Source: Clostridia bacterium
GTDB lineage: Bacteria; Bacillota; Clostridia; Oscillospirales; Acutalibacteraceae
Length of the DNA: 35,384 nucleotides
Assembly (NCBI GenBank): GCA_017550625.1
Contig: JAFZOL010000038.1
Span: 1-35,384 of the forward strand
Reading direction: 5' to 3'
Shown here: positions 6,590-35,384 of the stretch, piece after piece
How positions within the stretch are numbered: position 1 is the first letter of the stretch
How the letters are laid out: each line of letters opens with the position of its first letter
Notes under the pieces: model-generated
Seen by the model: the letters and a program-made list of their open reading frames with translations, nothing else
What the model was told of the DNA's origin: nothing
The model's database searches: none
Made by a program: the position numbers and the translations under genes

Positions 6590-7024
6590 AATAAATGTGG
6601 GATGTAAAATGAGGGGGAAGGGCGCACAGGGCGCACAGGGCACACAGGGCGCACAGGGAAGAATACAAAATACAAAATACAAAATAAAGGGGCCGGAGGC
6701 CAGAGGCCAGAGGCCAGGGGGCGCGGCTTCGCCGCGCGGGTGCACGGTCCACGGGTGCACGGGTGCACGGGAGTTATTAAACGGTAGCGCGGCAGACCTC
6801 TGCCGCCCGACGGAAAGATGATCGGTTTTTTGTTTGCTTGGGCGACGGGGTGCTTTCCGGCAGGGGTGCAGCGTCATACCCGTCGACCGGGCGGAACAGA
6901 AATCCGCAAATCCATTCGCGCAGCGGCAGAGGCAGACTCCCCCGCGGGGCGGGAGATGTCCGCAAAGCGGACAAAGGGGGACGGGCCGGGTGCGGCTGCC
7001 GCGCTACCGGATAATCAAAACCCG
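6590..7024. repeat. Repeat cluster with the full module order
   Basis: GGGCGCACA 9-mers (6617-6659), AAAATAC heptamers (6660-6685), GGCCAGA heptamers (6690-6722), a GCGCGGC-TTC-GCCGCGC hairpin (about 6721-6738) and GGGTGCAC tandem with GGTCCAC (6739-6773). Next is a GTAG-C-hairpin unit (6784-6806: GCGGCAG-ACCT-CTGCCGC). After ~115 bp without recognisable genes comes a copy of block F (6923-7007) ending in CTAC. Confidence 0.8.
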
Positions 7025-8951: not shown

Positions 8952-10001
8952 TCAGAAGCTCAGGCGCATGACCATCAGGCGCAGGGTGACGACCAGCGCG
9001 ACGCCGAACAGCTCGAGCATGACGGGCGGGATGCGGTTTTCGGCGTAATCGAGGTCGGCGATCACGGCGGCGCGGTAGAGCGACAGCACGGTCTCGTTCG
9101 AGGTGCCGGTGAGGCGGATCACCTCGTTCGCCGCCGCCCACACAAGCACGTGCAGGGCGAGCTCGCCAGCGATGTGCTGATAGGTCATCCAATAGTCCTT
9201 GCTCTCGTCGCCGTTTTCGAGCATGGTCTCTTCTTCGCCCGCATAGAGCTTATCCACGAGCGCGCCGAACACGGCGAGGTTCAGGATCTCGGGATGGTCG
9301 GCGATGTTCACGCGAATATACACGGTGCCCTTGCCGTCCTCAATGACCTGATACTTGTAAACGGTCCCGTCCGCGATGAGCTCGGCCAAAGCGTCGGGGT
9401 CGTCGAGCTGCACGAAGACGTATTCGCTCAGGGCGTTGGCGAGGTCAACGAGCGGCAGCTCGCCCTCGGGGAGCTCGGTGTCGTCGTCGCCAATGATTTC
9501 GGAGATCTCTTCGAGATCTTCGGGGCTGACCTCGGGCACGGCGCCGATGGCCTCGTAGAGCTTGATGAGCAGCTGCGACACGGTTTCAAACGCGGCGCTC
9601 GCGTCCGCGGCGACGTCTTCGCTGCCGGCGTATTCGGCGAGCATGCCGATCAGGCTTTGGACGTAACTCAGAAGCCCGGACGCGGCGTCGGACGCTTCAT
9701 CCTCCGAAGCCTCGCCGTCCCCGGCGTCGCCGAGCAGGCCGGTGAACGCCTCAAAAAGCTGCGAAACGATGCCGGTGAGGCCCGACACGATGCCGGAGGC
9801 GTCCGTCTCCCCGTCCCCTTCGCCGCCGAGAAGGCCCGCGAACGTGTCAAGAAGCTGCGAAGCGATGTCCGAAAGCCCCGCGGTGAGGTCGGAGGCCTCG
9901 TCCCCGGCGGCGGGCTCGTCGTCAACGGTCTCGGCAAGCACGGCGGCGGGCGTCACGGCAAGCAGCAGTACCGCCAGCAGCACGGCAAGAATCTTTTTCA
10001 T
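8952..10001 (-). CDS. Secreted acidic repeat protein with C-terminal membrane anchor
   Basis: Not recognised. The 349-aa protein has a classical signal peptide (cleavage expected after Ala23, VLA-ET). An acidic Gly/Ala/Ser-rich region (24-130) follows, in which a ~33-residue unit of the form S-GL-x-x-I-x-SQL-x-x-F-x-GLLG recurs. Residues ~130-320 are more globular. A hydrophobic segment (~328-345) ends in Arg-Leu-Ser-Phe. This suggests a surface protein with its bulk outside and a C-terminal membrane anchor. No sortase motif is visible. The longer open frame to 10307 runs into repeats; the start at 10001 is set by the signal peptide, AGAGGG upstream, and the promoter. Monocistronic. Confidence 0.8.
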   Translation of the reverse strand: MKKILAVLLAVLLLAVTPAAVLAETVDDEPAAGDEASDLTAGLSDIASQLLDTFAGLLGGEGDGETDASGIVSGLTGIVSQLFEAFTGLLGDAGDGEASEDEASDAASGLLSYVQSLIGMLAEYAGSEDVAADASAAFETVSQLLIKLYEAIGAVPEVSPEDLEEISEIIGDDDTELPEGELPLVDLANALSEYVFVQLDDPDALAELIADGTVYKYQVIEDGKGTVYIRVNIADHPEILNLAVFGALVDKLYAGEEETMLENGDESKDYWMTYQHIAGELALHVLVWAAANEVIRLTGTSNETVLSLYRAAVIADLDYAENRIPPVMLELFGVALVVTLRLMVMRLSF

Positions 10002-10061: not shown

Positions 10062-10516
10062 GAGGCAGCGCGGCGCAGCCTCACGGGTAACATAGATGCC
10101 GCACATCCTTCCCCATTCATATTGATTTCGAAGAAAGGGCAAATCCGGCACTTGGGCGGCGGGGCGCTTGTGGGTAGTACGGCTGCCCACAGCCGTTATT
10201 TCCCTGCGGAGCGGGGTGGGTCGATTTGACGGATACTGACGGGGTATGACAAAACTTGATTCAAATCGATCCCATCCCCGACGCGGGGAAACCCGACGGA
10301 TAGACAACCGTTTCGGGTTCTGTTTGGGCGACGAGCAGACTTCTTCTCATATCTCAATCGTTCATAAAGAATCAAAGTCACAAAACCAGCGACCCCGCCG
10401 ACCGGTTTAATGGAAAAGCACAAATCCATTCTCGCAATGAAAGAGCGCCGACCGAAGCGGGAACCGAGACCGAGCCGCACTACCGGCAGGCGGGATCGCC
10501 GACGAAACAAAAACGC

Positions 10517-10545
10517 TTGACATCTGTCGCGATACGGCGTACGAT
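10517..10545 (+). promoter_or_regulatory. Possible promoter of the RAYT gene
   Basis: -35 TTGACA (10517-10522), 17-bp spacer, -10 TACGAT (10540-10545, 4 of 6 consensus bases). Because the -35 covers the TTG at 10517, translation is unlikely to begin there. Confidence 0.5.
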
Positions 10546-10561
10546 AATCTCGGTGATCGAT

Positions 10562-11068
10562 ATGCGGACGTATGTAAAAGGCTATTATATCAAGACGCAG
10601 CACCGGCTGAAGTCGTTTGATTATTCTTCAAAAAACTCCTATTTTCTCACATTCAATACAAAAGACAACAAGCGCATTTTGTCTGAAATCAAACGGTCCG
10701 ACGACGGGCTGCACACGCTTCTTACACTGACGCCCGAGGGTGAAGCAGTAGACTATTTTATCCGCCGGATCGAAGAAAGCTACGGCGTTGAGCTCGACGC
10801 TTACGTCATTATGCCGAATCACGTGCATATGATGGTGACCGTCCCTTATCACGGGGCGTCGGAAACACAGGCGGATTCCGTCATTGCAAGACTCGTGCGC
10901 TCCACGAAAACGCTCGTATCAAAAAAACTCGGGCGGCAGATCTGGCAGGACGATTATTACGACGTGATCGCGGACACGGAGAAAATATACGACCGCTGCC
11001 TCGATTATATCCGGGACAACCCCGGCGTATGGCTGCGGGATAACGGCGCCGAGCCGCAGATTGAATAA
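10562..11068 (+). CDS. REP-associated tyrosine transposase (Y1/HUH, RAYT)
   Basis: RAYTs are single-strand DNA nucleases related to IS200/IS605 TnpA and are thought to spread REP palindromes. The 168-aa protein has the HUH motif in MPNHVHMMV (His87 and His89), the WQDDYYDVI block (128-136) and YIRDNP (149-154), whose Tyr149 is the expected catalytic tyrosine. All key residues are present. Length fits the family. ATG 10562 was preferred over TTG 10517 because the latter lies in a -35 box; the ribosome binding site is weak. The gene is visibly richer in A/T and in AAA/AAT codons than its neighbours. It stands alone between inverted element ends. An ordinary IS200 transposase is the alternative, but WQ...YD and YIxxNP favour RAYT. 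Confidence 0.9.
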   Translation: MRTYVKGYYIKTQHRLKSFDYSSKNSYFLTFNTKDNKRILSEIKRSDDGLHTLLTLTPEGEAVDYFIRRIEESYGVELDAYVIMPNHVHMMVTVPYHGASETQADSVIARLVRSTKTLVSKKLGRQIWQDDYYDVIADTEKIYDRCLDYIRDNPGVWLRDNGAEPQIE

Positions 11069-11216
11069 AAGAAGAAGGGGTGTTTTGGCGGGCTCGTCGC
11101 CCGGCCGATTACAAAAAATACGATCCTTCCGACGCTTTTCCCCACGTCGGGGAGTCTCGCCGTTCGGCTCAACCCCCACTCCGCAGGGAAATAACGGCTG
11201 TGGGCAGCCGTACTAC

Positions 11217-11404
11217 CCACGGCGCGCACGCCGACAAAACAAAAAAGGCGATATAACCCTTATCCGCGCGAAAGTATCCTGAGCCGATATTATTTAAAGA
11301 GAATTCTTCATCCTTCATTCTTCATTCTTCATCCCACATCCAACACCTTTTTTCATACGCCGCACCGCCGACACTCCACACTCCACACTTCACACTTCAC
11401 ACTC
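11217..11404. repeat. Degenerate short tandem repeats beyond rplQ
   Basis: After ~90 bp without features come TTCATTC/TTCATCC units (11307-11340) and, after a T-run, ACACTCC and ACACTTC heptamers (about 11372-11404). The heptamers grade into one another by single-base changes. No gene is visible. Confidence 0.6.
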
Positions 11405-26891: not shown

Positions 26892-27206
26892 TGTTTTGCC
26901 TCCTAACGTTTTGGTGGGGCTCTGTAAATGAAATCACACGGCGCCGGGTTATTCGCGCCTGCCGCTTAATAAAAGCCGGAATTCGCAAGTATTCCGGACA
27001 GGTGCGGCGTGTTTCGCCGTCAGGCCGCGAAGATTCCCCCGGGGCGGTTAAGGGTCGCCCAAAGGTACGGTCTGACTATCAGATGCGCCCGGTTTTGAAT
27101 CGGACATACTCCGCGGAAATTATCCACTTCAGAGAGTGGTCACCTCCCGCATCATCGCATGACGGTCCGAACGGGAAGGCATAGTTCACCTATCCCATTC
27201 GAATGC
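26892..27206 (-). promoter_or_regulatory. Long 5' leader of the ribosomal supercluster
   Basis: About 315 nt separate the predicted start site from rpsJ. The leader can form CCACT-CTCTGA-AGTGG, GACGGCG-AAACA-CGCCG(C), and CCGGAAT/ATTCCGG hairpins before the AGGAGG of rpsJ. It contains no repeat modules, unlike the sequence just upstream of the promoter. Ribosomal-protein autoregulation would fit, but I do not recognise a named leader motif. Confidence 0.55.
27129..27182 (-). CDS. Possible 17-aa leader peptide upstream of rpsJ
   Basis: ATG at 27182, preceded by AGGTGA (27186-27191) 3-4 nt away, opens a 17-codon frame (MPSRSDRHAMMREVTTL) that stops at 27129. The stop falls in the loop of the CCACT/AGTGG hairpin. 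A stronger Shine-Dalgarno-like GGGAGGTGA lies inside this frame, so the short frame may be coincidental. No homology is known to me. Confidence 0.3.
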   Translation of the reverse strand: MPSRSDRHAMMREVTTL

Positions 27207-27212
27207 CCGACA

Positions 27213-27241
27213 AGTATAACACATCTTTTTTCAGATTGCAA
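27213..27241 (-). promoter_or_regulatory. Sigma-A-type promoter of the ribosomal supercluster
   Basis: -35 TTGCAA (27236-27241), 17-bp spacer, -10 TATACT (27213-27218), on the minus strand. It lies ~320 bp before rpsJ. Confidence 0.85.
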
Positions 27242-27576
27242 GAGGTTTTTTGTTATTTTTTTAACTTTTTTTTGCCGTCTGCGGCGGCAGGGATAAGGGC
27301 GCACAGGGCGCACAGGGCACACAGGGCGCACAGGAAGGATTGAGAGGGGCCGGAGGCCGGAGGCGCGGCGAAGCCGCGCGGGTGCACGGGTGCACGGGTG
27401 CACGGGTGCACGGGGATGAGGCCGCGAACACATCGGTAGCGCGGCAGCCGCACGCGGCCCGTCCCCCTCTGTCCGCTTCGCGGACATCTCCCCCGCCCCG
27501 CGGGGGAGTCTGCCTCTGCCGCCCGACGGATATGCTTTGGATTCTATGCCCGTTCGGGCGACGGGCTCGTCAGCCG
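27242..27576. repeat. Repeat cluster upstream of the ribosomal promoter
   Basis: GGGCGCACA 9-mers (27296-27337), GGCCGGA heptamers (27344-27362), hairpin GCGCGGC-GAA-GCCGCGC (27363-27379) and GGGTGCAC tandem of four units (27380-27416). Block F follows in inverse orientation, starting with GTAG (27436-27523), and then ~50 bp leading into the GTAG end of the next element. No gene is visible. Confidence 0.85.
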
Positions 27577-27927
27577 GTAGTACGGCTGCCTACAGCCGTT
27601 CTTTCCCTGCGGAGCGGGGGTTGAGCCGAACGGCGAGACTCCCCGACGCGGGGAAAAGCGACGGATAGACGACCGGTTCGGAATCTGCTTGGACGACGAA
27701 CAAGGTTTTTTCGTATTTTTCTATCTTTCTTTGAAAGAATCAAAGACACATTACCATCAACCCCGCCGTCCGCATTTATCATCAAAGGCAATCGGGCGCC
27801 GCCGCGACTTCCCCACGTCGGGGATGGGATCGATTTGAATCGGATATTTTTTTATGCCCCGTCTTTTTCCGTCAAATCGACCCACCCCACTCCGTAGGGA
27901 ACAAACGGCACTGGGGTGCCATACTAC
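27577..27927 (-). mobile_element. Complete 351-bp GTAG-hairpin element without transposase
   Basis: Left end GTAG-T-ACGGCTG-CCTA-CAGCCGT (27577-27599). Right end, inverse, is ACGGCAC-TGGG-GTGCCAT-A-CTAC (27905-27927). Next to each hairpin is TCCCTRCGGAGYGGGG. The left subterminal sequence is the GGTTGAGCCGAACGG type; the right is the GGGTCGATTTGACGG type. The interior holds AAAGAAAG / CTTTCTTT-type sequence and no gene. It matches the element at 31273-31622 in reverse orientation over its whole length. The right hairpin has a diverged stem that still pairs apart from one C-A (G-T on the other strand). Confidence 0.85.
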
Positions 27928-28246
27928 CGGAAAACGTGCCCGCCGACCGGGCGGAACGGGAATCCACAACTCACTGCCCGCTGCGGCAGGGGTCTGCCGC
28001 ACAGCCGTAAAAAACCGCCGGAGGTTTTTAATCCCCCGGCGGATCATTCTTTCCCCCGGCCTCCGGCCTCTGGCCCCTAGCCTCTGGCCTCTGGCCCCTC
28101 TCTATCCTTCCCGTGCACCCATGCACCCGTGCACCCGTGCACCCGCGCGGCATCGCCGCGCTCCCTGGCCTCTGGCCCCTTAATTTTGTATTTTGTATTT
28201 TGCATTTTGCATTCCCTCGGCCCTGTGCGCCCTGTGCGCCCTCTGA
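27928..28246. repeat. Repeat cluster in inverted module order
   Basis: A TGCGGCAG-GGGT-CTGCCGCA hairpin lies near 27981-28000, then a short CCGCCGG...CCGGCGG hairpin with T/A runs (about 28014-28042). GGCCTCT heptamers (28054-28109), GTGCACCC tandem (28111-28144), hairpin GCGCGGC-ATC-GCCGCGC (28145-28161), GGCCTCT heptamers (28166-28184), ATTTTGT heptamers (28185-28214) and CCCTGTGCG 9-mers (28215-28244) follow. The last five blocks are the order seen at 6617-6773, read backwards. Confidence 0.85.
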
Positions 28247-28954
28247 TCAATTGATCTCCCCTTCGATCTTCGGGAAAATCATCTTCTTGATCAGCACGTT
28301 CATGCAGAACCAGTTTTCGGTGGCGGAGATCTTTTCTTTCTCGCTGTCGTCGGCGGCGGCGACGCTCACGATGTTGCTGTCAGCGTCGATGAGGTACACG
28401 CGGCGGATGTCGTCGGCCGAGCGCCCGGCGCCGTTAAACTCAAACACGTAGTTCTGCCCGGTCTGCGGCACGGTGTACACCGCCACCAGCTTGTCTGTCT
28501 CGATGCCGCGCTGGTTGTTGACGAGGCGGATATAGGGGTTCGTCTTTTCGGCGCTCACCACCATGGTGCCGTTGGCGTCGGGCAGCTCCACGTGCAGGTC
28601 GAGGTTGCCGTTCTCGTCGGTGGCGAGCTCGGTGGAGCCCTCATAGGCCGTGGTCGGCTCGGTTGCCGGCTGCGCGGTGGTCGGGACTTCGCCGGTCGGC
28701 TCGGGCAGGGTCGTGTTCGGCGCGGTCTCGGTGATCGGCACGTAGGTCGGCACGGATACCGTCTCGGCCGTGGCCCGCTCAAAAGACGGCATCTCCACCG
28801 AGATCTCGAAGTCGGACGTGACGGGCAGGGTGGACGCCTCGGGCTCGTAGAGATAAGAATACTCGTCGGTCGGCCCCTGCGGCTCGGCGCCGCACGCCGC
28901 GAAAATGAGCGCGGCCAGCGTTATCGCGATAAAAACGGTCAAACTGCGTTTCAT
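28247..28954 (-). CDS. Predicted lipoprotein of unknown function
   Basis: Not recognised. The 235-aa protein starts MKRSLTVFIAITLAALIFAAC, a clear lipoprotein signal with Cys21 in FAAC. Residues ~25-115 are rich in Thr, Pro and Glu (many T-T/P-T-x pairs), resembling a cell-wall-spanning linker. Residues ~120-235 look globular, with NPYIRLVNNQRGIE and VFEFNGAGRSADDIRRVYLID. The frame extends ten codons upstream, but the start at 28954 fits the signal and the GGGAG site. A GCCCC-TTC-GGGGC hairpin lies just upstream of that site. It appears monocistronic. Confidence 0.82.
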   Translation of the reverse strand: MKRSLTVFIAITLAALIFAACGAEPQGPTDEYSYLYEPEASTLPVTSDFEISVEMPSFERATAETVSVPTYVPITETAPNTTLPEPTGEVPTTAQPATEPTTAYEGSTELATDENGNLDLHVELPDANGTMVVSAEKTNPYIRLVNNQRGIETDKLVAVYTVPQTGQNYVFEFNGAGRSADDIRRVYLIDADSNIVSVAAADDSEKEKISATENWFCMNVLIKKMIFPKIEGEIN

Positions 28955-28989
28955 GTCAAAACTCCCAACGCCCCGAAGGGGCAATATAG

Positions 28990-29202
28990 AATGGTATAAA
29001 AATTTTTAACCTTATATATAAGAGGCCAGGGGCCAGAGGCCAGAGGCCAGGGGGCGCGGCGCAGCCGCGCGGGTGCACGGGTGCACGGGGAAAAAGGCGG
29101 CGCTTTGCGCCGCGGGTGCATGGGTGCACGGGTGCACGGGTGCACGGGGATGAGGCCGCGGCCCCGCCGCGCTTTTTCAATGCCGGCCGCAGGCCCCGAA
29201 TC
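28990..29202. repeat. Repeat cluster: heptamers, hairpins and GTGCAC tandems
   Basis: GGCCAGA/GGCCAGG heptamers (29021-29054), hairpin GCGCGGC-GCA-GCCGCGC (29055-29071), GGGTGCAC (29072-29092), hairpin GGCGGCGC-TTT-GCGCCGC (about 29096-29112) and GGGTGCAC (29113-29150). The segment GCTTTTTCAATGCCGG that introduces the mini-hairpin chain follows. Confidence 0.8.
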
Positions 29203-29303
29203 GTTTCGCGAACGCGAAACACTTCACGCCGCGAAGCGGCACTTCACTTGCGAAGCAAACTTCACGTCGCGAAGCGACACATCACTGCGCGGCATTGTCG
29301 CGC
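29203..29303. repeat. Chain of GCGAAGC mini-hairpins, copy 1
   Basis: Five hairpins in a row: GTTTCGCGAACGCGAAAC (29203-29220), GCCGCGAAGCGGC (29228-29240), TTGCGAAGCAA (29248-29258), GTCGCGAAGCGAC (29266-29278) and GCGCGGC-ATT-GTCGCGC (29287-29303). The spacers between them are ACTTCAC three times, then ACATCAC. Three hairpins share the core GCGAAGC, known as an exceptionally stable DNA mini-hairpin. Confidence 0.9.
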
Positions 29304-29304
29304 T

Positions 29305-29355
29305 CCCGTGCACCCGTGCACCCGTGGACCGTGCACCCGCGCGGCATCGCCGCGC
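29305..29355. repeat. GTGCACCC tandem plus GCGCGGC hairpin
   Basis: 8-mer tandem with GTGGACC (29305-29338) and hairpin GCGCGGC-ATC-GCCGCGC (29339-29355), placed directly before a terminator as at 4319-4368 and 7087-7135. Confidence 0.85.
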
Positions 29356-29377
29356 ATTTTCTTTCCGCCGCGGAAAG

Positions 29378-29400
29378 AAAAAAACCCGCCGAAAGGCGGG
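29378..29400 (-). terminator. Terminator of the 90-aa gene
   Basis: CCCGCC-TTTC-GGCGGG on the minus strand (29385-29400), followed by seven T. A further TTTCTTTCCG/CGGAAAGAAA hairpin abuts it. Confidence 0.9.
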
Positions 29401-29416
29401 ATCCGGACGATCGGTC

Positions 29417-29689
29417 TTACGCCCCCGTGATCGTGGAGAGCACGGCGGAGGAATTGGGATTGCTGAGCAGATCGATCACGCTCGTGGCGAGCGAATTCAG
29501 CACGAGGCCGATATCCGCCGCGTCCGCGCCGGTGACCGCCGCGATGACCCCTTTGAAGATCCCCACAAGCCCCTGAAGCGAGCTCGTGTCGCCGTTTTCG
29601 ATCGAGTCCATGGCGGACTGGAACGCCGCGTTCACAGCCTGGGCGTCAAACCCCAGGTTCGCAATCGTCTGTAAAAGCGCAGATAACAT
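29417..29689 (-). CDS. Small 90-aa protein of unknown function
   Basis: Not recognised. It starts MLSALLQTIANLGFDAQAV and is rich in Ala, Ser, Leu and Ile. It has no cysteine, few charged residues and amphipathic helical stretches (VGIFKGVIAAVTG, LNSLATSVIDLLSN). There is no signal peptide. A strong GGAGGG ribosome binding site 7 nt before the ATG and a terminator right after the stop argue for a real gene. No terminator is seen between the upstream AI-2E-type gene and this one (116-bp gap), so cotranscription is possible. Confidence 0.7.
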   Translation of the reverse strand: MLSALLQTIANLGFDAQAVNAAFQSAMDSIENGDTSSLQGLVGIFKGVIAAVTGADAADIGLVLNSLATSVIDLLSNPNSSAVLSTITGA

Positions 29690-29805
29690 GATAGGACCCT
29701 CCTGAAAAAACCTGTACGGAAATAATCTATCACAAACGTTCGCGTTTATTTTTCTGTTTTAGAAAAATAACGCAGATTTTTTATACATTTTTCAGAAAAA
29801 ACGGC

Positions 29806-31071
29806 TTATTCTTCCTCTTCGGCAGCAACAGGGACGGCTTCGGCGGGGATTTCCGCGGCGGGCGGGGCGTCTTCGGGCCCGCCCTCAACGGCAGGTTCCG
29901 CGGTGCGATAGAGGTGGATGATGCCCTCGTCGTTGAGCTTTTTGATCACGATGCAGATGAACGGCAGGATGAAGAAGCCGAGCACGCCGAGGGTCTTGGT
30001 GCCGATATACATCGCCATGATCGTGACGATGGGCGACATGTTCACCTGCCCCGCCACGAGCTTGGGCTCGATGATCTGGCGGATCACGGTGATCACGGCG
30101 TAGAGGATGATGAGGCCGATGCCCATCTTCGCGTTATTCTGGAAGAACGAGATGACCGCCCACGGGATCACGATGGTGCCGGTGCCGAGCACGGGCACGA
30201 TGTCAACGAGCGCGATGATGAGGGCGATGAGCAGGATATAAGAGAACTGGACGTCGAAGATGCCGAGCAGCTTGAGGATCGACAGGCCGATCGTGAGCTC
30301 GGTGGTGGTGATGAGGATGATGAGCGAATACGCCTTGACCATCTTTTTGAGGCTCGACAGCGTCACGGTGCGGGCGTCGCGCAGCTTGGTGAGATGGCGC
30401 TCGGGCAGCAGGCGCTTGACGAAATCGAGCATCTTGTCGTAGTCGATCGTCATGAACACGCACGAGATGATGAACACGACCACCGAGATGACCGCCGACG
30501 GGATCGAGGTGATGGCGTCCTTCACGGCGCCGGCGCCGCCCCCGCCCGAGAACATGCCGCCGAGCAGGCTCTTGACGTCGTCAAACGTGAAGGGCAGCTG
30601 GTTCGACTCGATGATCCTGCCGAAAAAGGCGTTGATGCTGTCGCGCGCCTTCACGCGCAGCGTTTCCGGCAGAAAGCCCACGAAATCGTAGGTCCACTTG
30701 CGCGCCGATTCGGCGAGCGCGCCGGGGCTCTGCAGCTTGTTCCCCACATACGACACGAGGTCCTTGAGCTTGGTCCACAGGCTCTGCCCCAACAGGATGA
30801 GCAAAAACACGATGAGGCCGAAGATCGCCAGCACGAAGATCGTGCTCACGATGCCGCGCTTGAAGGGGGTCTTTTTGCTGATGAACGTGACCGGGCGGTG
30901 CAGGATCGCCGCGATCAGAAACGCGAAGAAAAACGGCGCGATGATCGGAAAGAACGGGCGCGCAAGAAAATAGAACAGCGCGATGATCACCGCGAAAAAC
31001 GCGGCGTTGATCAGAAAGGCCCTTCTTTTTTCAACGATTTCGCTTTTCATGACTTCGTTTTCGCTTTTCAT
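29806..31071 (-). CDS. AI-2E/PerM-family membrane protein (YtvI-like)
   Basis: The family contains exporters or channels such as TqsA and the sporulation protein YtvI. The 421-aa protein has about eight membrane segments. N-terminal helices lie at ~18-90. A long soluble region follows, then the conserved C-terminal block VDIVPVLGTGTIVIPWAVISF and RQIIEPKLVAGQVNMSPIVTIMAMYIG, closest to YtvI by eye. The C-terminal tail is acidic. The ATG at 31071 has GGAGG 5 nt upstream. A second in-frame ATG seven codons later lies in a tandem copy of the same 21 bp. Substrate is unknown. Confidence 0.85.
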   Translation of the reverse strand: MKSENEVMKSEIVEKRRAFLINAAFFAVIIALFYFLARPFFPIIAPFFFAFLIAAILHRPVTFISKKTPFKRGIVSTIFVLAIFGLIVFLLILLGQSLWTKLKDLVSYVGNKLQSPGALAESARKWTYDFVGFLPETLRVKARDSINAFFGRIIESNQLPFTFDDVKSLLGGMFSGGGGAGAVKDAITSIPSAVISVVVFIISCVFMTIDYDKMLDFVKRLLPERHLTKLRDARTVTLSSLKKMVKAYSLIILITTTELTIGLSILKLLGIFDVQFSYILLIALIIALVDIVPVLGTGTIVIPWAVISFFQNNAKMGIGLIILYAVITVIRQIIEPKLVAGQVNMSPIVTIMAMYIGTKTLGVLGFFILPFICIVIKKLNDEGIIHLYRTAEPAVEGGPEDAPPAAEIPAEAVPVAAEEEE

Positions 31072-31156
31072 GACTTCCTCCGCGGGCAGCGCGCCGGACG
31101 AACACGGCCCGTAGCGGAAACTGCCCTTTCTGATATATTTTATACCACTTTTGAGG

Positions 31157-31162
31157 ATTATA
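31157..31162 (-). promoter_or_regulatory. Possible -10 box of the AI-2E-type gene
   Basis: TATAAT on the minus strand within an A/T-rich stretch ~85 bp before the start. No convincing -35 is seen at the right distance; a second candidate, TATAAA, lies nearer the gene. Confidence 0.35.
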
Positions 31163-31194
31163 CAATAGGTTTCTTTAAAAAAGCGGAAATAAGG

Positions 31195-31272
31195 ACCAAG
31201 GGCGCACAGGGCCGGGGGACGCGGCGAAGAATTTGCGTTTTCCTTTTTGCCCGGTCGGCGGGCCCGCCGTGG
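31195..31272. repeat. Short repeat remnant before the element
   Basis: Two GGGCGCACA-like units (31199-31212), a GC-rich stretch, then GGTCGGCGGGCCCGCC, the outer flank shared by several GTAG-hairpin ends. Confidence 0.55.
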
Positions 31273-31622
31273 GTAGTACGGCTGCCCACAGCCGTTTGTT
31301 CCCTACGGAGTGGGGTGGGTCGATTTGACGGAGAGAATAGGGATATGAATATAACTTGATTCAAATCGATCCCATCCCCGACGTGGGGAAGTCGCGGCGG
31401 CACCCGCTTGCCTTTGATGATGAACCCGGTCGGCGGGGTCGCTGGCATCGTATTTTTGTTTTTTTCAAAGAAAGACAGAAAAACACGAAAAAACCTTGTT
31501 CGTCGCCCAAACAGATTCCGTACCGATAATGCATCCGACGCTTTTCCCCGCGTCGGGGAGTCTCGCCGTTCGGCTCAACCCCCGCTCCGCAGGGAAAGAA
31601 CGGCTGTAGGCAGCCGTACTAC
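31273..31622 (+). mobile_element. Complete 350-bp GTAG-hairpin element, opposite orientation
   Basis: Left end GTAG-T-ACGGCTG-CCCA-CAGCCGT (31273-31295). Right end is ACGGCTG-TAGG-CAGCCGT-A-CTAC (31600-31622). The subterminal sequences are the GGGTCGATTTGACGG type at left and the GGTTGAGCCGAACGG type at right, the reverse of 27577-27927. The interior carries TGATGATGAACCCGG, a T-rich stretch with TTTCAAAGAAAG, and CCTTGTTCGTCG, all shared with the other copy. No gene. Confidence 0.85.
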
Positions 31623-31776
31623 CCACAAGCGCCCCGTCGTCTGATCGAAACGAAAAACCGGGACTCTTTCCGTCGGACGGACAGAGGGGGACGGGCCGCG
31701 TGCGGCTGCCGCGCTACCGAAATGATTGTGCGCGGCATCGCCGCGCTTTTTCAATGCCGACCGCAGGTCCCGAATC
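31623..31776. repeat. Partial block F and GCGCGGC hairpin
   Basis: The terminal half of block F (31675-31717) ends in CTAC. Hairpin GCGCGGC-ATC-GCCGCGC (31730-31746) and the GCTTTTTCAATGCCG lead-in follow, the same lead-in as before the chain at 29203. Confidence 0.75.
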
Positions 31777-31877
31777 GTTTCGCGAACGCGAAACACATCA
31801 TGCCGCGAAGCGGCACATCACTTGCGAAGCAAACATCATATCGCGAAGCGATATATCATTGCGCGGCATCGCCGCGC
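31777..31877. repeat. Chain of GCGAAGC mini-hairpins, copy 2
   Basis: Same five positions as copy 1: GTTTCGCGAACGCGAAAC (31777-31794), GCCGCGAAGCGGC (31802-31814), TTGCGAAGCAA (31822-31832), ATCGCGAAGCGAT (31840-31852) and GCGCGGC-ATC-GCCGCGC (31861-31877). Spacers are ACATCAT, ACATCAC, ACATCAT, ATATCAT. The fourth stem differs from copy 1 at both end bases and still pairs. Confidence 0.9.
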
Positions 31878-31879
31878 CC

Positions 31880-31932
31880 TCGACCCTGTGTGCCCTGTGT
31901 GCCCTGTGTGCCCTGTGTGCCCTGTGCGCCCT
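31880..31932. repeat. CCCTGTGTG 9-mer tandem
   Basis: About six units of CCCTGTGTG/CCCTGTGCG, the longest 9-mer run in the window. It ends ~20 bp before the rpmH promoter. Confidence 0.9.
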
Positions 31933-31952
31933 TTCCCCTTTAAAAATAACAC

Positions 31953-31981
31953 TTGACATCCCCACCCGCCTGTATTATAAT
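31953..31981 (+). promoter_or_regulatory. Perfect consensus promoter of rpmH
   Basis: -35 TTGACA (31953-31958), 17-bp spacer, -10 TATAAT (31976-31981): both boxes and the spacing are consensus. The ~90-nt leader has a GAAAAAG/CTTTTTC hairpin (about 32030-32050). Confidence 0.95.
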
Positions 31982-32079
31982 GTTTCAGTATGGTAAAAGG
32001 GTGCATATGCCCTTTCCCGCGAATCCGCTGAAAAAGGTCTCTGCTTTTTCACAGCAAAAAAAGAATGGAGGGGAACAAC

Positions 32080-32214
32080 TTGAAAAGAACGTTCCAGCCC
32101 AAGAAGCGTCAGCGCAAGATGGAGCACGGCTTCCGCAAAAGAATGTCCACGTCCAACGGCCGCAAGGTCCTTGCCCGCCGCAGAGCCAAGGGCAGAAAAG
32201 AGCTCTCCGCCTGA
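32080..32214 (+). CDS. rpmH: Ribosomal protein L34 (bL34)
   Basis: A 44-aa basic large-subunit protein. Translation begins [19 protein letters not shown] and continues [24 protein letters not shown], the family sequence. The start is TTG at 32080, 6 nt after GGAGGGG. An in-frame ATG at 32065 overlaps that binding site and would add five residues not found in the family. It opens the rnpA-yidD-yidC-jag unit. Confidence 0.97.
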
Positions 32215-32238
32215 TTTGGGGCGTAAGGGCCAAACGTG

Positions 32239-32589
32239 ATGGCTTCGCCGAAACCCGAAACGTTACAGCTGAACAGTGATTTCCGCCGGGCTTATGCCCG
32301 CGGAAAGGTTTACACGGATCCTGCGCTGGTCACCTACGTGGTCAAGAACCGCGCGGGCATTTGCCGTATCGGGATCACGACGAGCAAAAAGATCGGCTGC
32401 GCCGTCAAGCGCAACCGCGCGAGAAGAGTGATCAGGGCGGCGGCAGAGAGGCTGCCTCAGATCGAAAAACACGTGGATCTGGTGTTCGTTGCCAGAACCA
32501 AGACCGCCTATCAGAAAAGCACCGAGATCGCCGAAATCATGCGTTCTCAGCTCGAAAAAGCAGGTGTGATACAACATGAAGAAGGATAA
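32239..32589 (+). CDS. rnpA: Ribonuclease P protein component
   Basis: Binds the 5' leader of precursor tRNA and assists the catalytic RNA. 116 aa from ATG 32239 (GTG at 32236 is also in frame). It has LNSDFRRAYARGKVY and GITTSKKIGCAVKRNRARR, whose RNR motif is at 58-60. The ribosome binding site (AAGGG) is modest. The gene lies 24 bp after rpmH, and its end overlaps yidD by 14 bp. The RNase P RNA gene is not in the window. Confidence 0.95.
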   Translation: MASPKPETLQLNSDFRRAYARGKVYTDPALVTYVVKNRAGICRIGITTSKKIGCAVKRNRARRVIRAAAERLPQIEKHVDLVFVARTKTAYQKSTEIAEIMRSQLEKAGVIQHEEG

Positions 32590-32836
32590 CGGCGAGAGCA
32601 TCCCGCTCAGGATGATCTCTGTCTATCAGCGAAACATCTCCCCTCATCTCCCCGCTCGCTGCAGATATTATCCGACCTGCTCGCAATACACCTACGACGC
32701 GATAGACAAATACGGCTTTATCATAGGCGGCATCCTGGGGGCCTTGAGGCTCCTCAGGTGCAATCCCCTGTTTCCGGGCGGCGTCGATCCCGTGCCGGAA
32801 TTCAAACACATCCCTTACCGCAAGAAAAAGAACTGA
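32576..32836 (+). CDS. yidD: Membrane protein insertion efficiency factor YidD
   Basis: A small membrane-associated protein that helps YidC-dependent insertion. 86 aa, with SVYQRNISPHLPARCRYYPTCSQYTYDAI (key RCRYYPTCSxY, Cys29 and Cys35), GGILGALRLLRCNPLFPGGVDPVP, all family landmarks. Starts inside rnpA, so translation is probably coupled; 24 bp before yidC. Confidence 0.96.
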   Translation: MKKDNGESIPLRMISVYQRNISPHLPARCRYYPTCSQYTYDAIDKYGFIIGGILGALRLLRCNPLFPGGVDPVPEFKHIPYRKKKN

Positions 32837-32860
32837 CGTTGAAGGAGTTTACGCACAAAC

Positions 32861-33823
32861 ATGCAGATCCTTTACTATCCCTTTGGCTGGGCGCTCGGCG
32901 CGCTGTATTCGCTGACGCATAACTATCTGGTCGCTCTGATCATCCTGACCGTGGTGCTGCGTCTGCTGCTGCTGCCGTCTTCGATCAAGCAGCAGAAAAG
33001 CTCGGCCAACCAGATGCGCCTGACCGCGAAGGTCAATAAGATCAAGCGCAAATACGTGGGCCAGAACACGCAGGAGGCCCGTCAGAAGCAGCAGCAGGAG
33101 ATCCAGGAGCTGTATTCCCGCGAAGGGTTCCGCGGCATGGGCGGCGGCTGCGCCCCCATGGCGCTGCAGCTCGTGGTGATGATGGGCCTTTACGGCGCCA
33201 TCTATCAGCCCCTGCAGTTCGTGCTCGGCATTTCGGCCGAAAAGATCACGACCCTCATCGAATCGCTCAAGGCCTTTCTCGGCGAAGGCGCCACCGTGAG
33301 CACGCGTCCGCAGCTCGAGATCCTCAGGCACATCGAAAACCTCGCCAACACCGGCCTTTCGGACGCCGAGTTCGCCAAGGTGCTGGATTTCAAAAACAGC
33401 TTCACCGCGTTCGGCTTCGACCTGACGAACGTCCCGAAGGACGACATGAAGACCGTGGGCTGGTATCTGATCCTGATCCCGGTGCTCGCGGGCCTGACTG
33501 CCATGCTCTCGGCCGTGTATACCATGCTGCGCCAGAAGAAGACCCAGCCCGACATGGGCCAGAACAAGATGATGATGGGCTGCATGATGCTGCTCACGCC
33601 CCTTATGTCCGGCTATTTCTCGTATATCCTGCCGCTGGGCATCGGTTTTTACTGGATCTTCTCGAATATCCTCTCTTTCATCCAGATGATCGTGATGAAC
33701 ATCTTCTTCAAACCGTCTCAACTCGTCGCCGCGCAGATGATCGACGAAACCGTGCAGCGGCGCGCACGTGAAAAGAGCATCAAAGAGACGAAGGCCCTGA
33801 TGGACGCGCAGCAGGGCAAGTAA
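32861..33823 (+). CDS. yidC: Membrane protein insertase YidC/OxaA (SpoIIIJ type)
   Basis: Inserts membrane proteins alone or with SecYEG. 320 aa, with helix 1 holding the groove arginine (Arg34 in TVVLRLLLLP). The cytoplasmic helical hairpin SSANQMRLTAKVNKIKRKY to GMGGGCAPMALQLVVMMGLY follows, then a ~75-residue extracellular insert with three or more later helices (to about 285). The basic C-terminal tail suits ribosome binding. No lipobox precedes helix 1, unlike Bacillus SpoIIIJ. Confidence 0.95.
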   Translation: MQILYYPFGWALGALYSLTHNYLVALIILTVVLRLLLLPSSIKQQKSSANQMRLTAKVNKIKRKYVGQNTQEARQKQQQEIQELYSREGFRGMGGGCAPMALQLVVMMGLYGAIYQPLQFVLGISAEKITTLIESLKAFLGEGATVSTRPQLEILRHIENLANTGLSDAEFAKVLDFKNSFTAFGFDLTNVPKDDMKTVGWYLILIPVLAGLTAMLSAVYTMLRQKKTQPDMGQNKMMMGCMMLLTPLMSGYFSYILPLGIGFYWIFSNILSFIQMIVMNIFFKPSQLVAAQMIDETVQRRAREKSIKETKALMDAQQGK

Positions 33824-33877
33824 CGACGAACGTCCCCCGCCCGCGGACCCCCGCGGCGCTATGAAAGGAAACACGAA

Positions 33878-34993
33878 ATGATCATTGAACAAATCGGCTA
33901 CGGCGCCAGCTTTCAGGAGGCCTATGAGAACGCCAAAGAGCTTCTCGCGGCTCCCGACGACGCCGAGCTTCAGCATGAAATCATCCAGGAAGCCAGAAAA
34001 AAGCTCTTCGGCCTCAGAACCGAGCCCGCGAAGGTGAAGGTGTGGTATGAGATCCCCGACCCGAAGCCCGAGCGCCCCGCGAAAAAAGAAGCGCCCGTGA
34101 AGACCGAGCGCCCCGCGCAGCCCCGTCAGGCCAAAAAAGAGCCCGTGCCGGTCGTGAAGAAGGACGACCGCAAAAATAATCAGCCCGTTCAGAAGAAAGA
34201 AGAACCGAAGCCTCAGCCCGTTCAGAAGAAAGAGCAGCCCGCCCCCAAGAAGGAGCAGCCGAAACGCGAGAAAAAGCCCGAAGCGGCCGAAGCCGTCAAG
34301 GAAGCGCCCGCGCCGGCCGTGATGGTCCCCCTGCCCACCGACGAGAACGACGTCGCGGTGAAATTCCTGCGCCTCGTGACCAAGGGCCTCGGCATCGAGG
34401 ACTGCGGCATCACCGTTGAAAAGGCCGAAAACGGCAGCGAATACGTGTATACGCTCAGCTGCGGCGACGACGACGGCGCCCTGATCGGCAGACGCGGCGA
34501 GACCCTCGACGCGATCCAGTATCTGCTGCGCCTGACCGAAAACAAGGGCGTGGAAGACGACAAGCACAGAAAGCTGACCGTCAACGTCGGCAACTACCGC
34601 GAGAAGCGCCACGCCTCGCTCAAGAGCCTTGCCGAAAAGAACGCGCGCAAGGTGCTCAAATACGGGCGCAACGTCGCCCTTGAGCCGATGTCCGCCTACG
34701 AGCGGCGCATCATCCACACCGCGGTGCAGGGCATCGACGGCGTGACCTCGCACTCCGTGGGGTCCGATTCGAACCGCAAGGTCATCATCTCGCTCGAAGA
34801 GGGCGTGACCCCCACGAACCCCTCCCGCGGCGGCGACAGAGACCGCAGAGGCGGCAGACGCGACGACCGCAGAGGCGGCCGCGGCCCCAGGCGCGAGCCC
34901 TATAAGCCCAGCGTGACCCGCGAACCCCGCAAGGACAACGCCGGCTCCCTCTACGGCAGGATCGAAGTGCCGAAGGCGGAAGAAGAAGAATAA
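33878..34993 (+). CDS. jag: RNA-binding protein Jag/KhpB
   Basis: Jag/KhpB/EloR proteins bind RNA and affect cell elongation and sporulation. 371 aa: Jag-N domain (1-55), a Lys/Pro/Glu/Gln linker (60-150) with two close KKEQP-type units, a KH domain with GRRG (204-207), and an R3H domain with Arg276 and His280. The tail (317-345) is rich in Arg/Gly (RGGDRDRRGG...), an extra RNA-binding feature not universal in the family. It starts 54 bp after yidC and ends the unit; trmE/mnmE does not follow. Confidence 0.95.
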   Translation: MIIEQIGYGASFQEAYENAKELLAAPDDAELQHEIIQEARKKLFGLRTEPAKVKVWYEIPDPKPERPAKKEAPVKTERPAQPRQAKKEPVPVVKKDDRKNNQPVQKKEEPKPQPVQKKEQPAPKKEQPKREKKPEAAEAVKEAPAPAVMVPLPTDENDVAVKFLRLVTKGLGIEDCGITVEKAENGSEYVYTLSCGDDDGALIGRRGETLDAIQYLLRLTENKGVEDDKHRKLTVNVGNYREKRHASLKSLAEKNARKVLKYGRNVALEPMSAYERRIIHTAVQGIDGVTSHSVGSDSNRKVIISLEEGVTPTNPSRGGDRDRRGGRRDDRRGGRGPRREPYKPSVTREPRKDNAGSLYGRIEVPKAEEEE

Positions 34994-35007
34994 GGTTAGT
35001 TAACAGA

Positions 35008-35040
35008 GAACGGGCGATCCGAGATCGCCCGTTCTTTTTT
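35008..35040 (+). terminator. Terminator of the rpmH-jag unit
   Basis: A 12-bp perfect stem GAACGGGCGATC / GATCGCCCGTTC (35008-35019 with 35023-35034), 3-nt loop, then TTTTTT. Confidence 0.97.
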
Positions 35041-35289
35041 GCGGATTGAGGGCGCACAGGGCACACAGGGCGCACAGGGATTATAAGCCGCCTGCGGCGG
35101 CGGGTGCACGGTCCACGGGTGCACGGGTGCACGGGAGTTATTAACGGCAGTGCGGCGAGGCCGCGCAATCGTAGGGGCGCAGCCGGCGGGATCGCCGTCC
35201 GCATAAAACTGAAGCCAAAAATCCCCCTGCCGCTGCGGAAACGAGGTTTTCTGATTGCGATCCCGTTTGGTCGGCGAGCCCGCCTGCCG
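35041..35289. repeat. Repeat cluster after jag
   Basis: GGGCGCACA/GGGCACACA 9-mers (35049-35080), hairpin GCCGCC-TGC-GGCGGC (35087-35101) and GGGTGCAC tandem with GGTCCAC (35102-35135). A GCAG-T-GCGGC-GAG-GCCGC hairpin resembling the GTAG-foot units follows near 35147-35163, then ~120 bp of unassigned sequence ending in TTGGTCGGCGAGCCCGCC, the outer flank of the element. Confidence 0.8.
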
Positions 35290-35384
35290 GTAGTACGGCT
35301 GCCTACAGCCGTTTGTTCCCTACGGAGTGGGGTGGGTCGATTTGCCGGAAAAAGACGGGGGATAAATAATATCCGATTCAAATC
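35290..35384 (+). mobile_element. Truncated GTAG-hairpin element at the right edge
   Basis: GTAG-T-ACGGCTG-CCTA-CAGCCGT (35290-35312), TCCCTACGGAGTGGGG and the GGGTCGATTTG type of subterminal sequence. The window stops in the ATTCAAATC block, ~95 bp into the element. Confidence 0.85.

Follow-up and report, generated by a model that had tools for sequence, protein, structure and literature searches.

The RAYT gene and the hairpins at its sides

The analyzed stretch of DNA (35,384 nt, hereafter the window) corresponds to contig 53 in a genome assembly of 2.88 Mb and 80 contigs. Its plus strand carries, at positions 10562–11068 (ATG at 10562, stop codon included), a gene encoding a 168-aa TnpAREP-like HUH/Y1 protein, i.e., a RAYT. 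The first-pass annotation had described this protein as complete, and its motifs and residue number were confirmed: NHVH, WQDDYYD (given there as WQxxYYD), and YIRDNP are all present, and the tyrosine is residue 149. Reckoned from residue numbers, the HUH motif NHVH is encoded at approximately 10817–10828, WQ at 10943–10948, and Tyr149 at 11006–11008 (all plus strand). An HUH motif combined with a tyrosine in Y---NP, and not in Y---Q, is what distinguishes RAYT (TnpAREP) proteins, and the window protein has both. It matched Pfam Y1_Tnp with 36.6 bits (cut-off 23), while its best model was NCBIfam REP_Tyr_transpos (62.7 bits, E 3.4e-17), below the cut-off of 80 set for that model. As five scanned relatives likewise stayed below this cut-off (47–73.9 bits), the model was taken as not reaching this RAYT branch. 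The closest solved chain was 4er8 TnpArep (E 0.0035). Among the residues through which E. coli TnpAREP contacts GTAG, W94, Q95, and E/D100 are kept as W, Q, and D, whereas H101 and R104 are aligned with V and D. In the 77-row alignment, position 104 is occupied by R in 71 of 74 filled rows and by K in two.

Genome-wide searches found a single RAYT (E ≤ 0.01, with no second RAYT protein match elsewhere in the genome) and a single Y1_Tnp gene (E ≤ 0.1). In the named-genome scan only two named RAYT matches were obtained, both from Oscillospiraceae MAGs (31–38% identity), which agrees with the Firmicute host proposed in the first-pass annotation. A promoter-like site, TTGACA-17-TACGAT, precedes the gene at 10517–10545 (plus strand); taken alone it is weak, as the scan gave one match against 0.9 expected. 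The gene for the closest relative of the RAYT, found in genome G214 of the same genus, is preceded at the equivalent position by TTGACT-17-TAAAAT, and the upstream order of a degenerate inverted end (CCGTACTACC in G214), promoter-like site, and ATG is common to both genes.

The hairpin GTAGTACGGCTGCCCACAGCCGT, of the form GTAG-T-ACGGCTG-NNNN-CAGCCGT, lies on both sides of the gene in exact and mutually inverted copies, at 10174–10196 (plus strand) and 11194–11216 (minus strand), as had been noticed before. They are parts of longer inverted ends, the left one (10170–10216, plus strand) consisting of the hairpin and TATTTCCCTGCGGAGCGGGG, and the right one located at 11174–11220 (minus strand). 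Previously estimated at about 45 bp, these ends measure 47 nt each, are 98% complementary, and are separated by 957 nt. Within the window, nine hairpin matches with up to three mismatches were detected (0.00 expected, 100 shuffles), of which seven are exact and two are overlapping reverse readings.

Dispersed GTAG-hairpin elements

A family of elements with such ends had been supposed to exist in this genome, and the hairpin is indeed found there in 36 exact copies of GTAGTACGGCTGCCCACAGCCGT, with none carrying one or two mismatches and none of the reversed-pattern control. Many sites hold a larger unit of approximately 350 bp, represented in the window by a complete RAYT-less element at 31273–31622 (plus strand, 350 bp). 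Complete elements share one layout: a GTAG hairpin, a B arm (containing TGGGTCGATTTGA), a middle part, a C arm (containing GTTGAGCCGAACGG), and an inverted GTAG hairpin. The fold of the copy at 31273–31622 is a single long hairpin (-95.3 kcal/mol, z -10.3 against shuffles). A second complete element, at 27577–27927 (minus strand), is 88% identical to it, and one of its end hairpins is a compensated variant, GTAGTATGGCACCCCAGTGCCGT; two further elements are cut, one near the contig start (17–257, minus strand) and one by the contig end (35290–35384, plus strand).

With 31273–31622 as the query, 15 full or nearly full copies with inverted hairpins were found in the genome including the query itself, the other 14 being 82–88% identical to it; 11 of the 15 span both query ends and four begin at query base 4 or 13. 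Ten more elements are partial, and each of them touches a contig end or stops at most 37 bases short of one, so the copy number of the element is a lower bound. Among 14 complete copies, 11 measure 346–353 bp and three, with an enlarged hairpin loop, 411–414 bp. The end-hairpin loop is larger by about 65 nt (including ggtctcggctcccgc) at loci L034, L036, L045, and L051, and a relative of part of this insert is present in the window at 10444–10506. None of the dispersed element copies read contained a RAYT remnant, and inspection by eye, uncounted, revealed no direct repeats at the element edges. The window-type hairpin forms differ by 23 two-sided changes, and their covariation is 0.517 compared with 0.166 after shuffling, where the paired percentage is partly circular, since the 17 forms of this set had been chosen as hairpins.

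Outside these inner elements a second (outer) family of GTAG hairpins was recognized, whose start, GGTAGCGCGGCAG, occurs as 37 exact 13-mers in the genome (reversed control 2). Allowing one mismatch, an outer-type start is located within 250 nt of at least one side in 13 of the 14 complete inner elements and of both sides in five (reversed control: no sides); one of the 14 has it on neither side, and a flank is cut short in two. In the window, such starts accompany the element at 27577 (27435–27447, plus strand) and that at 31273 (31706–31718, minus strand). Outer-type pairs also exist with no inner element between them, in the window at 6783–7008 (GGTAGCGCGGCAG ... CTGCCGCGCTACC, no strand assigned) and elsewhere at L204 and L205. 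The part of the window from 26900 to 35384 (e.g., 27380–27500 and 31700–31900) contains further short intergenic repeats, GTGCACGGGTGCACGG, GGGCGCACAGGG, and CCCCGCCCCGCGGGGGAG, which are densely packed into the intergenic spaces also occupied by the elements.

The RAYT interval (10174–11216, 1043 bp) is present in one copy in the genome. To the left of the gene lies a shortened element in reverse orientation (10174–10498, minus strand; approximate boundaries, read off the sequences) with a C-type outer arm bearing a B-type loop, an inverted middle, and a degenerate inner end (gagccgCACTACC, about 10472–10484) facing the RAYT, and to the right there is a solitary C arm (11128–11216, plus strand) that shares 96% identity with its counterpart in the element at 31273–31622. 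At both outer edges the interval has an arm of the C type, the left one being chimeric in that it combines both arm types found in dispersed copies. Outer-type hairpin starts were found on neither side of the interval (within 250 nt, up to one mismatch).

RAYT genes and hairpins in the genus and the family

Twenty-six genomes of the genus were compared, and RAYT matches (E ≤ 1e-5) were found in 13 of them. The closest RAYT, with 64% identity, is that of G214, a genome holding 31 exact copies of GTAGTACGGCTGCCCACAGCCGT. The nine complete G214 elements that were read measure 372–403 bp and resemble those of the window genome in part order and in folding (z -12.9 for one of them). Their cores are only 39% identical to those of the window genome (30% against shuffled sequence), while identity within the two genomes is 84% and 82% (eight copies per genome; 28 pairs within each, 16 between). 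With exact copies of the hairpin in both genomes and cores so dissimilar, the hairpin is the part that both lineages conserved, the intervening cores having drifted. In the 3.5 kb around the G214 gene, hairpins were detected upstream only.

The orthologous site in G214 holds no RAYT. Downstream of its rplQ (96% identical) there are 127 nt followed by a homologue of the secreted-protein gene (48% identity over 248 aa, E 2e-82) that in the window occupies 8952–10001, 1448 nt from rplQ. The window spacer is thus longer by 1321 nt, about 280 nt beyond the 1043-bp interval, so that the site gives no clean insertion of the interval; judging from this comparison, the RAYT and elements would have been gained here in the window lineage or lost in that of G214. 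Among 20 rplQ loci, four of which (G205, G207, G211, and G221) have less than 600 nt downstream before the contig end, a RAYT was present at that place in the window's alone, and G210 has a REP there.

In G210, which encodes three RAYTs (best 43% identity), 35 hairpin matches with up to three mismatches were found (control 1), 26 of them being GTAGCACGGCTGACCACAGCCGT, and nine inverted hairpin pairs are spaced 105–122 bp from start to start, like ordinary REPINs. Two RAYT matches each were obtained in G204 and G218. In general, several RAYT lineages of this one genus lie beside different hairpin forms (L144, L147, L148, and L154–L157); at L148 and L149, the identical RAYT proteins of G203 and G206 are surrounded by many GTAGGGAACG hairpins.

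The first-pass annotation had named frequent hairpins in RAYT-less genomes as evidence against its reading. Nine of the 13 RAYT-negative genomes of the genus have zero to two hairpin matches at up to three mismatches, and the other four have more: G216 with 11 (control 6), G219 with 9 (3), G220 with 7 (7), and G222 with 16 (3). Among the matches listed, the exact hairpin was confined to the window genome (G000), G214, and a single occurrence in G220, a 58% complete genome in which it lies at a contig start (L136); the one locus read from each of G217, G218, G219, G221, and G222 did not contain it. The first-pass reading was not refuted on this point, although co-occurrence is not strict, given G220 and the looser forms above control in G216, G219, and G222. 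These hairpin-bearing RAYT-negative genomes count against a strict rule; in them, the RAYT may have been lost or may fall in an assembly gap.

The survey was then widened to 200 genomes of the family, of which 47 gave RAYT matches (E ≤ 1e-6). With up to one mismatch, the exact-type hairpin was found in the window genome, and G125 and G174 gave a single 1-mismatch match apiece. For the GTAG hairpin of the relatives, a covariance model (R1) was built from 27 of 41 26-nt forms. At least ten R1 matches were present in 26 of the 47 RAYT-positive and in six of the 153 RAYT-negative genomes; for at least one match the numbers were 38 of 47 and 27 of 153, a count that is partly circular, since the hairpins behind R1 came from within RAYT genes of these very genomes, and in which the window genome is positive by a single match. 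The genomes are related and some have at least 38 R1 matches, so Fisher values serve as a guide only. Genomes with 23–24-nt hairpins are under-counted by a model of 26-nt forms, and seven of the nine RAYT-positive genomes without an R1 match have hairpins of that length in their RAYT loci. Conversely, at least five R1 matches were found in 14 of the 153 RAYT-negative genomes. Two genomes, G087 and G112, have at least 38 R1 matches each and no RAYT match at E ≤ 1e-6; their RAYT may be more distant or may have been lost.

In most RAYT loci of the family, GTAG hairpins are located inside the gene itself. The 77 loci read comprised 75 covering 76 family-scan matches (L107 covers two and was read once) and two from the named-genome scan; since L056 and L116 are one locus, 76 are distinct. 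An in-gene GTAG hairpin was detected in 63 of the 77 (62 of 76 distinct), and an inverted pair on both strands in 46 (45 distinct); 17 loci have one internal strand only, five have flanking hairpins only (within 600 nt), and nine have none, which means that GTAG hairpins lie in or beside the RAYT gene in 68 of the 77 loci, L056 and L116 being counted separately. With control feet, the same detector gave four (GATG), zero (CTAC), and one (GTGG) of the 77 loci, and never a pair. At a looser threshold, 91 loci (the 77 and 14 of 15 further genus loci, the fragment L152 being left out) were divided into 46 with an internal pair, 17 with one internal strand, 20 with flanking hairpins only, and eight with none. 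The plus hairpin is mostly situated at approximately nt 99–135 of the RAYT match and the minus hairpin at approximately nt 243–333; in the loci displayed, the first precedes and the second follows the HUH codons. Both members have the same length in 45 of the 46 pairs, mean identity within pairs is 92% (the unequal pair being set to 0), and 19 pairs are identical, among which the doubled locus enters twice. Selection on the protein alone does not account for this likeness, since the peptides encoded at the two sites differ. Across the RAYT loci of the family (L055–L132), the two hairpins of an in-gene inverted pair resemble each other but in most cases differ from those of other loci.

In a quick tree of 84 proteins (seven rows of at most 120 aa were left out), the window RAYT falls into a nine-row clade of genus members (99% SH-aLRT). 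All members of this clade have flanking hairpins, all of the GTAG-N-stem form with a 1-nt spacer, and none has an in-gene GTAG hairpin or R/K at position 104. The remaining 75 rows mostly lack the spacer and have R at 104, and 59 of them carry in-gene hairpins. Decay of the window RAYT, as V and D at 101 and 104 might suggest, is not the simplest reading, because the whole subclade lacks R/K at 104 and its reading frames are open.

Interpretation and relation to known systems

We consider it probable that the window locus is a REPtron, i.e., a single-copy gene for a single-strand nuclease of the RAYT family (HUH/Y1) among its cognate REP hairpins, and that the approximately 350-bp elements are long REPINs mobilized in trans. 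Each REPIN would be a largely palindromic unit ended by two inverted GTAG hairpins, in many cases nested with an additional, outer REP pair that lies next to it or around it. It would fold when its strand becomes single, possibly on the lagging-strand template; the RAYT would dock on the GTAG-foot hairpin at each end, Tyr149 would cut beside GTAG, and the REPIN could then be moved elsewhere in trans, with the RAYT gene staying anchored among the REPs and not travelling as ordinary element cargo. The RAYT/REP layout recognized in the first-pass annotation is indeed a REPtron layout, and the RAYT and the hairpin are associated: the gene is the sole Y1 gene found in its genome, and the identical hairpin recurs in G214.

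Several observations speak against this reading. V and D replace H101 and R104 of E. coli TnpAREP, though the subclade shares this loss; nine of the 47 RAYT-positive genomes lack R1 matches and 14 of the 153 RAYT-negative ones have at least five; the RAYT-negative, 58% complete G220 holds an exact hairpin; and the genome contains two hairpin families but one RAYT. As regards the contact residues, E. coli TnpAREP tolerates no substitution in GTAG, and a different GTAG requirement has been reported for the other group studied (PMC8266576), which makes a changed contact patch combined with a spacer hairpin plausible.

The main alternatives concern what moves and by which enzyme. The near-perfect inverted ends of 10174–11216, and its absence from the orthologous site of G214, where 127 nt separate rplQ from the secreted-protein homologue, would suit a whole autonomous transposon from which the 350-bp elements arose by internal deletion. 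However, this interval exists in one copy, the 350-bp copies read carry no RAYT remnant, a degenerate inverted end intervenes between the left end and the gene, the nearest RAYT has hairpins upstream only within the 3.5 kb around it, and the spacer difference of 1321 nt exceeds the interval by about 280 nt, with no clean insertion visible. Chiefly on account of the single copy, the unbracketed G214 gene, and the missing remnants, we judge this alternative decidedly improbable. The same evidence bears on the earlier proposal that the window holds the active or parental copy of the element family, which was not sustained: no second copy of the gene was found, the dispersed copies read are without RAYT sequence, the left arm is chimeric, and the G214 hairpins are upstream only. 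Activity of the RAYT, moreover, is not a property that can be read from sequence.

Size and inverted ends of the elements would also fit MITEs of a DDE transposase, the RAYT then being a bystander. No direct repeats were seen by eye at their edges, though, and the ends begin with GTAG-foot hairpins, as REPs do; furthermore, the identical hairpin recurs with the closest RAYT, and 68 of the 77 RAYT loci read have GTAG hairpins within or next to the gene, so this explanation appears highly unlikely. We also consider it unlikely that the hairpins spread otherwise (e.g., by recombination), with a domesticated RAYT only binding or trimming them. In the literature, RAYTs have been described as domesticated, and they are gene-like (PMC8266576); present movement of the elements is itself putative. 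Nevertheless, RAYT-linked copying is indicated by elements 82–88% similar at many sites and by the finding that the RAYT lineages of the genus are accompanied by different hairpin forms.

REPtrons and REPINs are already known as kinds. Like the published REPtrons and RAYT-REP systems (Nunvar 2010, PMC2817692; Di Nocera 2013, PMC3733652), the window locus combines a Y1/HUH gene with inverted GTAG-foot palindromes on both sides, which are repeated genome-wide; bracketing inverted hairpins are present around the window RAYT but not around its nearest relative in G214, where they are upstream only. The Smal2 REP of S. maltophilia, GGTAGCGCCGGGCCATGCCCGGCG in the table of PMC2817692, starts like the spacer form of the window. 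What differs is the clostridial (Oscillospiraceae-like) host and the units of about 350 bp with long second arms, often beside or within an outer REP pair. As in REPINs (Bertels and Rainey 2011, PMC3116915), two inverted, dispersed REPs and the spacer between them fold as one hairpin, and a RAYT has been proposed there to act in trans; the commonest published spacings are 71 and 110 bp, whereas the lengths here are 346–353 and 411–414 bp, and 372–403 bp in G214. By contrast with TIRYTs (TIRtrons), with long TIRs unrelated to GTAG repeats, the 47-bp ends of the window interval hold GTAG hairpins.

IS200/IS605 transposons belong to the same catalytic family, but they are multi-copy with an IS200-type TnpA, whereas the window RAYT is single-copy, has inverted hairpin ends, and scores 27.2 bits with the IS200-type model (cut-off 55). 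The COG1943 label separates RAYTs from IS200 enzymes poorly. Counts of COG1943 'RayT' have been printed for Geobacillus, a Firmicute (PMC4847372, PMC9693769). The words Firmicutes, Clostridi-, and Gram-positive are absent from the main texts of PMC2817692 and PMC3733652, and no report on REPs or RAYTs in Clostridia was recognizable by title or abstract start in the open-licence literature.

By motifs alone (NH[IFV]H, WQ, and Y---NP), the protein resembles TnpAREP subclass 2.4 (Quentin 2018, PMC6006769), in which in-frame REPs occur inside tnpAREP genes, generally between HuH and Y. The in-gene hairpins of the family described here differ in mostly forming an inverted pair, one before and one after the HUH codons, and the window subclade has none inside; such a pair is not described in the sections of PMC6006769 covered here, while its Supplementary Figure S10 may show one. 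Against the literature covered to this extent, clostridial GTAG REPs with RAYTs, approximately 350-bp REPINs beside or within outer REPs, an unchanged end hairpin with nearly unrecognizable cores, and paired in-gene hairpins around HUH look unusual.

These systems add a clostridial branch to the known RAYT-REP systems and bear on the spread of REPs and on how the match between a RAYT and its REP is maintained. The genus offers a natural series, with an identical hairpin in two genomes whose cores are nearly unrelated and whose enzymes are 64% alike, followed by sister lineages with altered hairpins and relatives with a hairpin pair in the enzyme gene, by which the co-evolution of DNA letters and protein residues becomes directly testable.

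As a tentative and rather doubtful extension, the RAYT gene of the family might be built around a REPIN: the inverted GTAG pair brackets the HUH codons at two fixed places, is concerted within a gene, and differs between lineages, so the gene would hold a sample of the enzyme's own substrate, possibly for self-tagging or self-regulation. The window subclade might have left this state by losing the in-gene pair, placing hairpins outside, replacing H and R by V and D, and acquiring a spacer hairpin and giant, partly nested REPINs. For a joint change of residue 104 and the hairpin spacer, the tree offers only two independent pairs (p 1 in a sign test); the change in the subclade amounts to one or two events and is thus a lead, without statistical weight. 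The rule is broken at L148 and L149 (D, no spacer), L151 (I, no spacer), and L078 (R, spacer). At L078, regular arrays of about 88 bp with alternating GTAGCGGACGCC and GTAGCGGCGACC hairpins extend on both sides of the RAYT, like BIMEs.
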